Assembly (NCBI GenBank): GCA_026418015.1
Contig: JAOACE010000022.1
Location: 62,001-126,000, forward strand
Source: Leptospiraceae bacterium
Lineage (GTDB): Bacteria; Spirochaetota; Leptospiria; Leptospirales; Leptonemataceae
Length of the DNA: 64,000 bases
Direction of reading: 5' to 3'
Part shown: positions 8,431 to 15,318 of the stretch, piece after piece
Layout of the letters: the number at the start of each line of letters is the position of its first letter
Numbering within the stretch: the stretch's first letter is position 1
Made by a program: the position numbers and the translations under genes
The notes under the pieces: model-generated
Database searches by the model: none
Seen by the model: the letters and a program-made list of their open reading frames with translations, nothing else
What the model was told of the DNA's origin: nothing

Positions 8431-8459
8431 ATTTTATAAATATATTGTATAAAATCTAT
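8427..8459. terminator. bidirectional terminator between convergent DUF4015 and metH genes
   Basis: A 12-bp perfect inverted repeat (ATAGATTTTATA / TATAAAATCTAT) with a 9-nt loop fills the 25-bp gap and overlaps both stop codons. It is AT-rich but long, with A/T-rich flanks on both sides. Confidence 0.65.
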
Positions 8460-11400
8460 TTATATGCTAATACGGGGGATAGCCATCTCTCTATTTCTTC
8501 TAAACTCATTTCTTTTCTTTGTGCATAATCCTCTACTTGATCTTTTAGAATTTTCCCTAAGTTAAAATATTCTGCTTTTGGATGAGAAAAATACAAACCA
8601 CAAACAGAAGATGGAGGCGTCATTGCTAAACTTTCTGTTAATCGTATAGGCGTATGTTTCTCTACTTGTATAAGATCAAACAAGATCATCTTTTCTGTAT
8701 GATCTGGCTGAGAAGGATAACCTGGTGCTGGTCGAATCCCAATGTATTTTTCTTTGATCAATTCTTCGTTAGTTAGGTTTTCGTCTGGTGCATATCCCCA
8801 GATTTTTTTTCGAACTAATTCATGTAAGTATTCCGCAAAAGCTTCTGCAATTCTATCCCCTAATGCTTTTACCAAAATACTATTATAATCGTCATGATGT
8901 TTTTCGTAATAATCTGCAATCTTTAATATTTCTTCTCCAGCTGTAACTGCAAATGCCCCAAGATAATCGGGCTTTGTTCCTAAGGGTGCTACATAATCCG
9001 AAAGGTTTCTATTAGGTTCTCCTTCGCGTTTTTCTGTTTGCTGTCTTAAACCATGAAAAGTAGCAATTCTTCGATTACGATTTTCGTCAGAAAAAACAAA
9101 AATATCATCATAATTTTCTGGGTTTGTATTAGCTGGAAATATACCAACTACCCCCACTGGTTCTACTTGTTTTTTTAATTGTTCTAACATTTTTAGAGCA
9201 TCTTGGTAGAGTTTTGTTGCTTCTTCTGCGTATTTTGGATCTGTTAAGATTTCGGGGAATTTTTTCTTCATTTCCCAAGCTAAAAAGAAGGGATTCCAAT
9301 CGATGTAATGTATTAACGTTTCTATATCTACTTTTACTGGTTGTATACCTAAAAATTTTGGTGTTGGTGGTTGGTAGCTTTGCCAATCTAGCTTTAAACG
9401 ATTATTGCGAGCTTGTTCTAATGTTAAATAATTTTTATCAGTTTTAGTATAATGTTTTTCTCTTAATAATTTATATTTATTTTTTATATTTTTTATAAAA
9501 TTTTCTCTTTCTTCTGGTGTGATTAATTGATTTACTACTGGAACACTTCGCGATGCATCGAGAACATGAATAACAGAATATGAATATTCGGGATCAATTT
9601 TAACCGCAGTATGAATTTCGCTTGTTGTAGCACCACCAATCAACAAAGGTATGGTCATTTTTTGTTTTTCCATTTCCCTTGCAATTTCTATCATTTCGTC
9701 GAGCGAAGGCGTAATAAGACCCGATAGTCCAATAATATCAACTTTTTCTTCTATGGCAGTATTCAATATCTTTTCTTTGGGCACCATTACCCCTAAATCA
9801 ATAATTTCGAAATTATTACAAGCAAGGACTACACCTACGATGTTTTTTCCAATATCGTGGACATCGCCTTTTACAGTTGCAAGAAGCACTTTTGCTTTTT
9901 TTTGTTGATTAGTATCTTTTTTTTCTTTTTCGATAAAGGGTATTAATACATTCACAGCCTTCTTCATTACGCGTGCACTCTTTACAACTTGTGGTAGAAA
10001 CATTTTACCTGCACCAAATAAATCCCCCACATAATTCATCCCATCCATTAAGGGTCCTTCGATGATTTTTAAGGCTTCTGGATATTTTTCTTTGTTTTGT
10101 ACGGCTTCTAATATATCTTCTTCGATATATTTATCGATTCCTTTTACTAATGCATATTTTAACCGTTCTTCTAACGGAGCATTTCTCCATTCTTCCGTAG
10201 AAGATTCTTCTTTGTTTTCGTTTTTGTATTTTTCTGCTAATTCCAACAATCGTTCTGTGGCATCTGGTCTTCGGTTTAGTATTACATCCTCAACAGCATT
10301 TCTTAATTCTTCTGGTATATCGTCATAAACATCCAATTGTCCTGGATTAACGATTCCCATATCTAATCCAGCTTTTATCGCGTGATACAAAAAAACAGAG
10401 TGCATTGCTCTTCTTACAACTTCGTTTCCGCGAAAAGAAAAAGATAAGTTAGAAATTCCACCGCTCACTTTCGCGTAGGGTAAATTTTCTTTAATCCATC
10501 TTGTTGCTCGAATAAAATCAACAGCATAATTGTTATGTTCTTCTATACCGGTAGCAATAGCAAAAACGTTTGGATCAAAAATTATATCTTCTGGGTTAAA
10601 ACCGATTTCTTGGGTTAAAATATTGTATGCTTTTTGACAAATTTCGATTCGCCTTTCGTATGTGTCTGCTTGTCCTTTTTCGTCGAATGCCATGACCACA
10701 ACAGCAGCACCATATTGCTTAACTCTTCTTGCTTGTTCTTTGAACTTTTCTATTCCTTCTTTCATCGAAATAGAATTTACAATACCTTTACCTTGTATAC
10801 ATTGAAGTCCTTTTTCGATTACTTCGAACTTAGAAGAATCGATCATAATAGGAACTTTGGCTATTTCTGGTTCCGAAGCGATAAGTTTTAGAAAATGTTC
10901 CATTTCGCTAGAAGAATCTAACATACCTTCGTCCATGTTGATATCAATAATATTTGCTCCGTTTTCTATCTGTTCTTTTGCAACCTCTAACGCCTCTTCG
11001 TATTTTTTTTCTTTGATCAATCGAGCAAACTTTTTGGACCCTGTAACATTGGTTCTTTCTCCTATGTTGATAAAATTAGAATCACTGCGAATTTCTAACA
11101 TTTCTAATCCTGCTAATCTAAGAATGTGATCGTTTTCTTTTGGTTTTCGCGGTTCTAAAACAGAGACAATTTCTGATATCTTTTTTATATGATCTGGTGT
11201 TGTTCCACAGCATCCTCCCACAATGTTTAGCCATTTGTTTTTCGCGTATTCTTTTAAGATTCTTGCCATGTAATCGGGTGTTTCGTCGTATCCACCAAAT
11301 TGGTTTGGAAGACCTGCATTCGGATATAAACTAATATAACAAGTAGCTAAATGACTCAACTCTTCGATAAAAGGCTTCATTTGTGCAGAACCTAAAGCAC

Positions 11401-12151
11401 AATTTAAACCTACGGACAAAAGATTTGGTGTATGGGCAATCGACGTCCAAAAAGCAGAAACGGTTTGTCCGGATAAAGTCCTACCACTCATATCGACAAT
11501 GGTTCCGCTGATCATAATTGGTAATTCAACCTGATATTTTTTAAAATATTCCTGAGCTGCAAAGATAGCTGCTTTACAGTTCAACGTATCGAAAACAGTT
11601 TCTATCAATAATATATCAACACCACCATCGACAAGACCGCGAATCTGTTCAAAATATGATTCCACCATCTGCTCGAAGCTAACAGCTCTGTATGCTGGAT
11701 TGCTAACATCAGGAGACATAGACAACGTTTTAGAAGTTGGTCCAATTGCACCTGCAACATATCGTTTCTTTTCTGGTGTAGAGTATTTTTGTGCAACCTC
11801 TTTTGCTAATCTCGCAGCTTGATAGTTTAATTCATACACTAATTCCACTAAACCATATTCTTCTTGGGATATTTTGTTAGAATTAAATGTATTTGTTTCT
11901 ATAATATCTGCGCCAGCTTTTAAATATTCTTCGTGTATACTTTTTATGATTTCTGGTTGAGTAAGGCATAAAATATCGTTGTTACCTTTTAACTCTTTCG
12001 GATGATCTTTAAATCTTTCTGCGCGAAAATCTTCTTCTTTTAGTTTATATCGTTGGATCATTGTCCCCATTGCGCCATCCAACACAAGAATTCTTTTATC
12101 TAGTAAGGTTTTTAGTTCGAGATATAAATCCTTCTTTGTTTGTGTAATCAT
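8456..12151 (-). CDS. metH: cobalamin-dependent methionine synthase
   Basis: MetH transfers a methyl group from 5-methyl-tetrahydrofolate to homocysteine through methylcobalamin. The protein (1231 aa from the second ATG) is full length and has all four modules: homocysteine-binding barrel ([10 protein letters not shown] near the start; the zinc ligands in [10 protein letters not shown]), pterin-binding barrel ([23 protein letters not shown]), B12 cap and Rossmann domain with the lower-ligand His in GDVHDIGKN, and the SAM-dependent reactivation domain ([12 protein letters not shown]). I choose ATG 12151 because GGAG lies 6 bases upstream; the in-frame ATG at 12163 abuts the U-run of a hairpin. 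It follows ahcY by a short gap, so both belong to the methyl cycle. Confidence 0.97.
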
Positions 12152-12163
12152 TTTGGTCTCCAT

Positions 12164-12194: not shown

Positions 12195-13493
12195 TTAGTA
12201 TCTGTAATGTTCTGGTTTATAGGGTCCTTCGATTGGAACGCCGATATATTTTGCCTGTTCTGGTGTTAATTGTGTTAGACGTGCACCTATCTTATCTAAA
12301 TGCAATCGTGCTACCATTTCGTCTAAGTGCTTTGGTAATAAATATACACCTACTTCGTATTTATTGTTATAGAGTTCAATCTGAGCAAGAACTTGGTTAG
12401 AAAAGCTTGTAGACATAACAAAACTTGGATGACCAGTAGCATTTGCTAGGTTCACCAATCGACCTTCTGCTAATAAAATAATGCTATGTCCATCAGGAAA
12501 TGTAAACTTATCCACTTGTGGTTTAATGGTTTTTCGCTTAATGCCAGGATATTCTTTTAGTTGCTTTACTTGAATTTCTACATCGAAATGTCCAATGTTG
12601 CAGACGATAGCACCATCTTTCATTTTTTCTAGATGTTCGATACGAATTACATCGCGATTTCCTGTAGCTGTTACAAAAATATCTGCTTTATCTACCCAAT
12701 TTTCTAGAATATCTACGGTATATCCTTCCATTGCTGCTTGTAAAGCACAGATAGGATCAATTTCTGTAACCACTACTCTACAATGGTTGTTTCTTAAAGA
12801 TTGTGCAGAACCTTTACCAACATCACCATAACCACATACGACTGCAATCTTTCCAGCCAGCATTATATCTGTCGCTCTACGAATTCCATCTACAAGCGAT
12901 TCTCTACAACCATAGATGTTATCGAATTTACTTTTTGTAACAGAATCATTTACGTTAATGGCTGGTATTTTTAACTTTCCTTCACGTAGCATTCTGTAGA
13001 GTTGATGAACACCTGTTGTTGTTTCTTCTGATACTCCGCGAATTTCAGAAAGAAGTTCAGGATGTTTTTCGTGTACATAATAAGTCAAATCCCCACCATC
13101 ATCTAACAACATATTGGGTCCTTTTCCATCGAAGTGGAGAGTTTGTTCAATTGCCCACCAATATTCTTCTTCTGTCATACCTTTCCATGCAAAAACAGGA
13201 ATTCCTCTGGCAGCAATTGCAGCAGCAGCATGATCTTGCGTGCTAAAAATATTACAGCTAGACCATCTTACTTCTGCACCTAATTCTACCAATGTTTCGA
13301 TCAAAACCGCTGTTTGAATCGTCATATGTAAAGAACCAGCAATCCTTGCACCTTTTAATGGTTTTTTGTCTTTATATTTTTCTCGTATTGCCATCAACCC
13401 TGGCATTTCTTTTTCTGCCAATATTATCTCTTCTCTACCCCATTCTGCTAAACTGATATCTTTGATTTTATAATCTAATGTTTTCTGACTCAT
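12195..13493 (-). CDS. ahcY: S-adenosylhomocysteine hydrolase (adenosylhomocysteinase)
   Basis: AhcY splits S-adenosylhomocysteine into adenosine and homocysteine, which MetH then remethylates. The 432-aa protein has the substrate-domain motif [16 protein letters not shown], the [17 protein letters not shown] segment, [13 protein letters not shown] with the Lys that contacts substrate, and the NAD Rossmann loop [13 protein letters not shown]. The C-terminus ends KPEHYRY, as in other family members whose C-terminal Lys-Tyr reaches the neighbouring NAD site. GGAG lies 10 bases ahead of the ATG. It sits between an ArsR-methyltransferase gene (upstream, same strand) and metH (downstream). Its leader is unusually G-rich (see separate entry). 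Confidence 0.97.
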
Positions 13494-13665
13494 ATATTGA
13501 TTCTCCGTTAAAGTTTTTACCCACCCACCCTCCTTTAAGATTTTTAATCCCTCCCTCTTTTAAGATTTTTAATCCCTCCCTCCCACCCGTAATTACCGTA
13601 ATTACCATAATTAAATTTTTATCCCACCCACCGCCTTATATTGTTTATAAATTTTATAAATTAAA
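13494..13665 (-). promoter_or_regulatory. G-rich ahcY leader with potential G-quadruplexes and tandem repeats
   Basis: On the ahcY sense strand this leader holds clustered G-runs: GGGTGGGAGGGAGGG (13574-13588), GGAGGGTGGGTGGG (13520-13533), GAGGGAGGG (13549-13557) and GGTGGGTGGG further upstream (13623-13632). The first fits the strict G3N1G3N1G3N1G3 quadruplex pattern. A 24-bp unit is present twice in perfect copy at 25-bp spacing (13534-13557 and 13559-13582). A 9-bp unit (GTAATTACC on the plus strand) is repeated at 13589-13597 and 13598-13606 with a partial third copy. Such composition is very unlike the AT-rich surroundings. No SAM or SAH riboswitch core was recognised. Its regulatory role is inferred. 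Confidence 0.6.
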
Positions 13666-14616
13666 TTATTTAGTACATTTTATAAATATACAATTCAATA
13701 GTCCTTTGCCTTTTCCTTTATAGGTTTCTATTCCTTTAAAATTTATGTTGGATAATTCTTTTTTTAGTTCCTCTACGTGAAATCCTAACCAAAAATCAGC
13801 AAATCTTTTTCGCATTTCTTCGATATTATGTTGCTCTAATTCCGCAATAATTAAATGGCCACCAAATTTAAGAATTCTGTAAGCTTCTTTTAATACTCTA
13901 TTTATGTTAGGCGTATGGTGTAATGCCATAGAAAGAACCACTAAATCTGCCAATTCATCTTTAATTGGCATTTCTTCCATCGGAGCTTGAATCAGTTCGA
14001 TTTTATTCTTCCAATCTTGATTCAATCGCTCTTGTAATTTGTTCAAACTGCTTTTGCTCTGATCAATACAGATCAATTTATTCACATAATGGATCAATTC
14101 AACAGAAATCCAACCAGTACCACAACCAGGTTCTATACAAACTTGAACTTTATTGGGTAATAATTCGATGATTTTTTTTTTGTAATATTCAGAATCTACA
14201 TATTGATTTTGGTTTAGTTCCAACAAGTCTCCAAATTTTTCGAAAAAGGAAATAGTATCGTTTTTTCTTTTTTCTAATAATTCAAACAATCGCTTTTGAT
14301 CAGCTCTAAAAAGATTTTTGAACTCTTCGTTCCAAAAATGTTCTTTTTCTTGAAGTTCTTTTAACTGAATAATGGAATCATACAAAGGATGAATTCGAAA
14401 TTCGGGAGAGATACCATAATAAATCCTCGCACCATCTCTTGCTGCACTCAATATTTTTGCATCTTGTAAGATTTTTAAATGTCTGGATATCCTACTTTGC
14501 CCCATATCTAATATTTCTAAAATTTCCGAAACATGCAAAGGCTCGTAGAATAACAACAGCAATATTCTGATTCTTGTTTCGTCCGATAATGCTTTTAAAA
14601 TTTCTAGGGTATCCAT
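13666..14616 (-). CDS. ArsR-family regulator fused to SAM-dependent methyltransferase domain (SahR-like candidate)
   Basis: The 316-aa product begins MDTLEILKALSDETRIRI, the standard opening of an ArsR winged helix; longer in-frame starts would add an unrelated hydrophobic stretch. Residues 1-85 carry the helix-turn-helix (MGQSRISRHLKILQDAKI). No clear metal-binding ELCVCDL motif is present. From about residue 140 a class I methyltransferase domain follows with motif I EPGCGTGWIS and VVLSMALHHTPN. Linked to ahcY and metH, it may sense S-adenosylhomocysteine or SAM through this domain, as described for SahR-type ArsR regulators of the methyl cycle. A perfect palindrome lies in its own promoter. 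Alternatively it is a true methyltransferase with a DNA-binding domain. Confidence 0.82.
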   Translation of the reverse strand: MDTLEILKALSDETRIRILLLLFYEPLHVSEILEILDMGQSRISRHLKILQDAKILSAARDGARIYYGISPEFRIHPLYDSIIQLKELQEKEHFWNEEFKNLFRADQKRLFELLEKRKNDTISFFEKFGDLLELNQNQYVDSEYYKKKIIELLPNKVQVCIEPGCGTGWISVELIHYVNKLICIDQSKSSLNKLQERLNQDWKNKIELIQAPMEEMPIKDELADLVVLSMALHHTPNINRVLKEAYRILKFGGHLIIAELEQHNIEEMRKRFADFWLGFHVEELKKELSNINFKGIETYKGKGKGLLNCIFIKCTK

Positions 14617-14633
14617 CAAATTTACAATATACC

Positions 14634-14661
14634 AAAATATCAAGATATCTTGATATGTCAA
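14634..14661 (-). promoter_or_regulatory. promoter of the ArsR-methyltransferase gene with embedded operator
   Basis: On the minus strand TTGACA (plus 14656-14661) and TATTTT (plus 14634-14639) are separated by 16 bp. The perfect 20-bp palindrome ATATCAAGATATCTTGATAT (14637-14656) fills the spacer and touches both elements. A repressor bound there would block RNA polymerase, so autoregulation by the ArsR-methyltransferase is the simplest reading. Confidence 0.7.
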
Positions 14662-14740
14662 TATTTTAATAATTAGAATAGCTATTTTATACAAAAATTG
14701 TATTGAACTACCATAAATCAAAAAAAAGTTGTTGAAAATT

Positions 14741-14980
14741 ATGAACGAAATTGTCAACGATATTCTAAAAATCTTTAAAGATAATCAAATTAAAGCAGGC
14801 GAAGTTTTACCCAAAAATATTATGACAGAAGCTTTAAAAAACTTTCCTATAGACAAAAAAGCAAAAATTCGCGATGCATGGCATTTTTTAGTGGGCAATC
14901 AACTAATTATCGAAGGAAATCCCCAAGGACCAATTCTAACGCCCAAAGGAGAAGAATTCATCAAAAAAACTTTAAAATAG
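14741..14980 (+). CDS. small winged-helix-like protein of unknown function
   Basis: A 79-aa protein from ATG 14741 (upstream in-frame TTG codons give no better start). It alternates amphipathic helices and ends in a short wing-like segment (LVGNQLIIEGNPQGPILTPKGEEFI), which resembles a winged-helix fold with a beta hairpin. It is divergent from the ArsR-methyltransferase gene and shares its control region, so the palindrome between them might also regulate it. It ends 8 bp before the TRL lipoprotein start. I do not recognise a named family. Confidence 0.6.
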   Translation: MNEIVNDILKIFKDNQIKAGEVLPKNIMTEALKNFPIDKKAKIRDAWHFLVGNQLIIEGNPQGPILTPKGEEFIKKTLK

Positions 14981-14988
14981 AGGTAATT

Positions 14989-15318
14989 ATGAGAAAATTT
15001 ATTGTCTTACTTTTTTTATTCATAAGTTTTAATTCTTGTAGAATTTTGGATCTAAGAAGTGCCTATGAACCTCCCAATGGTTGGATTTATCAATCGATAA
15101 CAGTAAATCACTTTGTTTCTCCTAAATCAGAATTAGGTAGTAGGCAAGGAAAAGCTTGTATAACCTCATGGTTTAATTTATACACAACTGGAGATGCAAG
15201 TATTCGAACAGCAGCAGCTATTGCTGGTATTAAAGAAATCCGAGCCATTGACTTCGAAGTAAACCGTTATTTTGGTTTTGTTTACGAAGAATTTTGTCTC
15301 ATTGTTCATGGAGAATAA
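14989..15318 (+). CDS. TRL-like lipoprotein
   Basis: The start is ATG 14989, preceded by GAGG; a longer in-frame start at 14878 overlaps the previous gene. The 109-aa product has a signal ending in SFNSC, a spirochaete-style lipobox. The mature part matches the TRL family (PF13146): SELGSRQGKACITSW, a GDASIRTAA helix and a closing FCLIVHGE strand. TRL proteins were named for their linkage to tRNA loci and their role is not known. Here it is followed within 8 bp by the oppositely oriented RNase P RNA gene and 500 bp later by a tRNA gene, which fits the name. Confidence 0.78.
   Translation: MRKFIVLLFLFISFNSCRILDLRSAYEPPNGWIYQSITVNHFVSPKSELGSRQGKACITSWFNLYTTGDASIRTAAAIAGIKEIRAIDFEVNRYFGFVYEEFCLIVHGE

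Follow-up and report, generated by a model that had tools for sequence, protein, structure and literature searches.

In the 64-kb window, which is the whole stretch of DNA analysed, a gene for an ArsR-type regulator with a methyltransferase domain lies ahead of genes of the S-adenosylmethionine (SAM) cycle, and a palindrome lies in its promoter region. The initial annotation proposed that the regulator controls the recycling of S-adenosylhomocysteine (SAH) through this palindrome, in the manner of SahR. Is the palindrome an operator, and if so, for which genes and in response to which ligand?

Regulator, operon and promoter region

The putative sahR gene (13666..14616, minus strand, ATG at 14616) encodes a regulator of 316 amino acids with an ArsR helix-turn-helix (HTH) and a class I methyltransferase fold. 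It was followed by ahcY (12195..13493, minus strand; adenosylhomocysteinase, 432 amino acids; TIGR00936, 651 bits with a cut-off of 498) and metH (8456..12163, minus strand; cobalamin-dependent methionine synthase, 1235 amino acids; PRK09490, 2064 bits; TIGR02082, 1740 bits), which confirmed the same-strand order regulator, ahcY, metH described in the initial annotation. A G-rich spacer of 172 bp (13494..13665, minus strand) with one four-run G motif separates sahR from ahcY. In our comparison, the immediate downstream neighbour of the regulator gene, in the same orientation, was ahcY in 65 of the 70 Spirochaetota rows and in 56 of the 61 rows that came from other phyla. In Leptospira interrogans (NZ_CP043881.1), the regulator, ahcY, a 4Fe-4S gene and metH lie in a row with the identical 20-mer ahead of them; the gene between ahcY and metH is small and encodes a 4Fe-4S binding protein (L277 9311-9610). 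Divergent from sahR, the window contained a 79-amino-acid open frame without a family match (14741-14980) and a short lipoprotein-like gene (14989-15318) that matched TRL (PF13146) and, below the cut-off, the Lsa14 adhesin. The lipoprotein-like gene is divergent from sahR in the nearest relative (L061), too. Control of the SAM-cycle genes by an RNA switch was dropped as a candidate, since neither the window nor the loci of metK and metF contained a riboswitch for SAM or SAH; the only Rfam matches in the window were RNase P RNA and one tRNA.

The fusion of an ArsR HTH (residues 12-55) to a methyltransferase fold (approximately residues 145-300), also part of the first description, was borne out by family matches and a structure model. 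The AlphaFold2 model (mean pLDDT 89.9, pTM 0.76) displayed an N-terminal winged helix whose recognition helix spans residues 40-52, then a long linking helix (residues 97-136) and the class I methyltransferase fold. Its best structural matches in the PDB were methyltransferases, several of which had been solved with SAH or SAM. Among 51 sequences, G164, G166 and G168 were invariant and D185 was conserved in at least 90%, positions expected for the SAM/SAH pocket of a class I methyltransferase fold. The modelled fold and the conserved residues fit a ligand pocket, for SAH or SAM alike and with or without retained catalytic activity. SahR is an ArsR protein with a sensor domain related to SAM methylases, and the window protein has the same combination of ArsR HTH and methyltransferase-fold sensor domain.

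The palindrome ATATCAAGATATCTTGATAT (14637..14656, no strand) is exact and fully self-complementary over its 20 bp, as originally reported; its assignment as operator is based on this self-complementarity and on its conservation upstream of homologues. It was found only once in the window when up to three mismatches were allowed. On the minus strand, a -35-like hexamer TTGACA (14661-14656) and a -10-like hexamer TATTTT (14639-14634), both assigned solely by their match to the consensus, are separated by a gap of 16 nt. The palindrome had been described as filling the spacer between these hexamers. Its position stood, but it does more than fill the spacer: it overlaps both hexamers, sharing the final base of TTGACA (14656..14661) and three bases of TATTTT (14634..14639). 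The hexamers are without statistical weight by themselves, with two promoter-like sites observed in 14560-14800 (241 bp) and 2.4 expected from shuffles. Among 94 distinct contexts of the site, 21 had a TTGAC that started 5-7 bases ahead of it. The palindrome alone is weak evidence as well. A perfect 20-bp palindrome occurred in 20 of 100 first-order Markov windows of equal composition (mean 0.23 per window), i.e. with a chance of about 20% per 64-kb window of 31% G+C. We therefore rejected the palindrome as self-sufficient evidence.

Conservation of the operator and extent of the regulon

Conservation, not palindromicity, sets the operator apart from chance. In 55 of the 80 loci compared (the best 80 of 383 relatives, from named genomes), at least 17 of the 20 bases were matched ahead of the homologue, as against none of 2975 controls; the upstream zone was approximately 250 bp and the controls were stretches of equal length from the same loci. 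The matches comprised 14 of 16 Leptospirales-like loci and 41 of 64 other loci. Since this test was seeded with the window sequence, an unseeded palindromic motif search was run (60 random starts, 150-bp upstream regions, loci L112-L175, window excluded), and a motif seeded with the window 20-mer was discarded as circular. The input was limited to those loci with at least 60 bp of upstream sequence, all of them homologues outside the order Leptospirales. The best 20-bp solution had the consensus ATATCAAgATATcTTGATAT. Applied to the window, this motif scored the operator at 30.2 bits, and the second-best place in the 64 kb at 9.2 bits.

Of the 392 Spirochaetota genomes sampled, 70 matched a regulator homologue at E ≤ 1e-25. 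Among the 70 Spirochaetota rows, 54 had a site that scored 14 bits or more, four had a variant site and 12 had neither. In the 61 rows from other phyla, on which the motif was trained, a site was present in 55 and no convincing site in six. Left out were L148 and L160 (same contigs as L211 and L218) from the other-phyla rows, L254 as a duplicate of L075, and L155 because of its short upstream region. The distant class-level homologues L092-L095 were excluded from the Spirochaetota rows; they had no adjoining ahcY and no operator site. Within the family of the window, 16 of 22 genomes matched the 20-mer within three mismatches. Regulator and operator also occurred together in records named Gemmatimonadetes, Latescibacterota, Aminicenantes, Acidobacteriota and KSB1, which extends the SahR type to Spirochaetota and several other phyla.

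The initial annotation had suggested a genome-wide search for the palindrome near other methyl-cycle genes. In the 2.9-Mb genome of the window, the 20-mer was found once within three mismatches, at the sahR operon. With the unseeded motif, no site was detected at metK or metF, where the highest scores were 3.7 bits (metK locus, L182) and -0.7 bits (metF locus, L183). Judged from sequence, the regulon appears to be limited to one operon in this genome. A wider regulon defined by the 16-mer core with up to three mismatches was rejected as too loose, with 102 forward matches versus 33 for the reversed-pattern control, each palindromic place being counted in reverse as well.

In genome G008, several genes, including one in the opposite orientation, lie between ahcY and metH. 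The metH open frame there has a near-perfect site of its own, the second in this genome (28.5 bits), which starts 37 bp ahead of it. Five further genomes with a detached metH (L257-L261) had no site before metH, so that such a site was present in G008 only, among the six genomes looked at.

Recognition helix and operator bases

The residues at the start of the recognition helix co-varied with bases 5-7 of the operator half-site, which supports direct binding of the regulator to the palindrome. The commonest helix start, MGQSR, was paired with CAA in 114 of 152 half-sites. The LKQSR and MRQSR helices of four genomes of the window's own family were paired with TGA in seven of eight half-sites, and the QSQPR helix of six alphaproteobacterial plasmid-borne homologues with AAA in 12 of 12. 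In these counts, half-sites of one locus and of related loci are not independent, and 18 rows that lacked a usable site or helix were left out. A recognition code reading MGQSR as CAA, L/M-K/R-QSR as TGA and QSQPR as AAA is slightly favoured by these pairings. We consider it somewhat probable that residues 38-39 and 41 set half-site bases 5-7 in the SahR family, and that one lineage of the window's family switched from G39/ATATCAAG to K/R39/ATATTGAG together with its operator.

The four genomes in question (L077, L079, L084 and L085) have K or R in place of the near-constant G39 and sites of the ATATTGAG..CTCAATAT type upstream of sahR. These sites were chosen by their similarity to the variant; the unbiased best palindrome agreed in three of the four (not in L084). 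The four rows grouped together in the best tree, in a branch without support (14/78). The switch may have been a single event. Three genomes of this class checked for a site before metH (L257, L258 and L259) had none and so added no support; in G011, the metH match was incomplete. A hybrid site, half canonical and half variant (ATATCAGGATATCTCAATAT), was seen away from sahR in genome G014 (L078 6308).

A one-residue specificity rule was rejected. In GRQSN helices, too, R takes the place of G39, but CAA was present in seven of eight of their half-sites, so context matters for specificity. A second Spirochaetota subgroup encodes GGKQSN- or GGRQSN-type helices beside ahcY (L082, L230, L234, L236, L237, L242, L244 and L246). 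The GGRQSN types retain CAA sites, and the GGKQSN types were without a clear canonical site.

A difference between the SahR motifs of alpha- and deltaproteobacteria is already published, and the K/R helix class did not appear in the available portions of the two sources (PMC4239095, PMC5343134). The three helix–operator classes are a ready set for testing how ArsR proteins read DNA.

Mode of control, ligand and related systems

The computed features of the locus, namely operator, protein architecture, gene order, conservation and helix–operator co-variation, are very probably those of a SahR-type, autoregulated SAM-cycle operon (sahR-ahcY-metH) with autorepression by promoter occlusion that is relieved by SAH. 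Here the ArsR-methyltransferase protein would bind as a dimer to the palindrome overlapping the -35 and -10 hexamers of its own promoter and block transcription of sahR-ahcY-metH. Accumulating SAH would then fill the pocket of the methyltransferase fold and take the repressor off the DNA. AhcY and MetH would be made, the former by read-through over the 172-bp spacer, and as a result SAH would be cleared and homocysteine remethylated. The SAH step goes back to the SahR regulon reportedly described by Novichkov et al. in 2014. SAH as the ligand is suggested by analogy, from the literature on the SahR family together with the fold; in Desulfovibrio, SahR represses SAM-cycle genes and responds to SAH, according to the available part of PMC8877191. 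The initially proposed SahR-type control of SAH recycling found support in the palindrome kept at homologues across phyla, in the helix co-variation and in the second site before metH of G008.

With operator and operon unchanged, the ligand could instead be SAM, acting as a corepressor in a SamR-like manner. The methyltransferase fold would accept either compound, and the SamR of Xanthomonadales, a distant SahR homologue, has been proposed to respond to SAM (PMC4239095, as far as its available text goes). SamR resembles the window regulator in being ArsR-type and in having methionine genes and a palindromic site. However, its palindrome is 24 bp long, versus 20 bp here, and its regulons, in the same portion of PMC4239095, contain no SAM-cycle gene except metK, whereas ahcY lies in the operon here and is the most constant partner of the regulator (see the row counts above). 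We consider SAM unlikely to be the ligand. It is less likely still that the target of the palindrome is the small divergent gene at 14741 (plus strand), instead of or in addition to the operon: a plus-strand promoter-like match does overlap the palindrome (TTGATA at 14650, TAGAAT to 14679), but this gene matched no family, and in loci with another divergent neighbour the site is still found beside the regulator gene. Annotation points in yet another direction, since both an NCBIfam model and the L. interrogans record label the regulator a metalloregulator (ArsR/SmtB in the model). The NCBIfam model, however, matches over the HTH only (residues 5-72), and both gene order and 20-mer are conserved across phyla. 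A metal- or thiol-sensing repressor, or a working methyltransferase, placed before ahcY and metH incidentally is therefore highly improbable.

The preferred SahR-type operon has close counterparts in Proteobacteria, which the SahR regulon surveys cover in their available portions (PMC4239095, PMC5343134). Like the predicted window system, SahR of alpha-, delta- and some gammaproteobacteria has a 20-bp palindromic operator, autoregulation, and ahcY and metH as targets (PMC4239095, Leyn et al. 2014, available part). The operator upstream of its own gene is shared with the deltaproteobacterial homologue loci, which were compared directly and not through the printed logo, and same-strand ahcY and metH are predicted targets here by gene order and conservation. 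With regard to orthology with the experimentally studied SahR of Desulfovibrio alaskensis, the comparison covered Desulfovibrionaceae homologues that adjoin ahcY (e.g. L169, D. piger, 34%). In contrast to the proteobacterial regulons, the host is a spirochaete (Leptospirales) and the regulon apparently consists of one operon, without a metK or metF site. Both genes are core SahR targets in Proteobacteria, but core means more than 70% of genomes (PMC4239095, available part), so that their membership varies and the window system is still filed under SahR. Homologues encoded by large alphaproteobacterial plasmids (L278-L283), beside metF or metH, are proteins of the same kind with an upstream palindrome of equal length; they differ in the QSQPR helix and a ACATAAAGATATCTTTATGT-type site, and their identity is 25-27%. 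Titles and abstract beginnings in the literature, mostly outside subscription journals, yielded no description of SahR in spirochaetes, which leaves its absence unproven. For spirochaetes including L. interrogans, where the annotation says only 'metalloregulator', the operon offers a concrete, testable control point of the methylation cycle.

The four-run G motif of the G-rich spacer, GGGTGGGAGGGAGGG (13574-13588, minus strand), lies in a window with a G+C content of 31%. The spacer measures 172 bp in the window versus approximately 22 bp in L061, and similar stretches were present at G000:C20:12320-12409 and C22:13757-13793.
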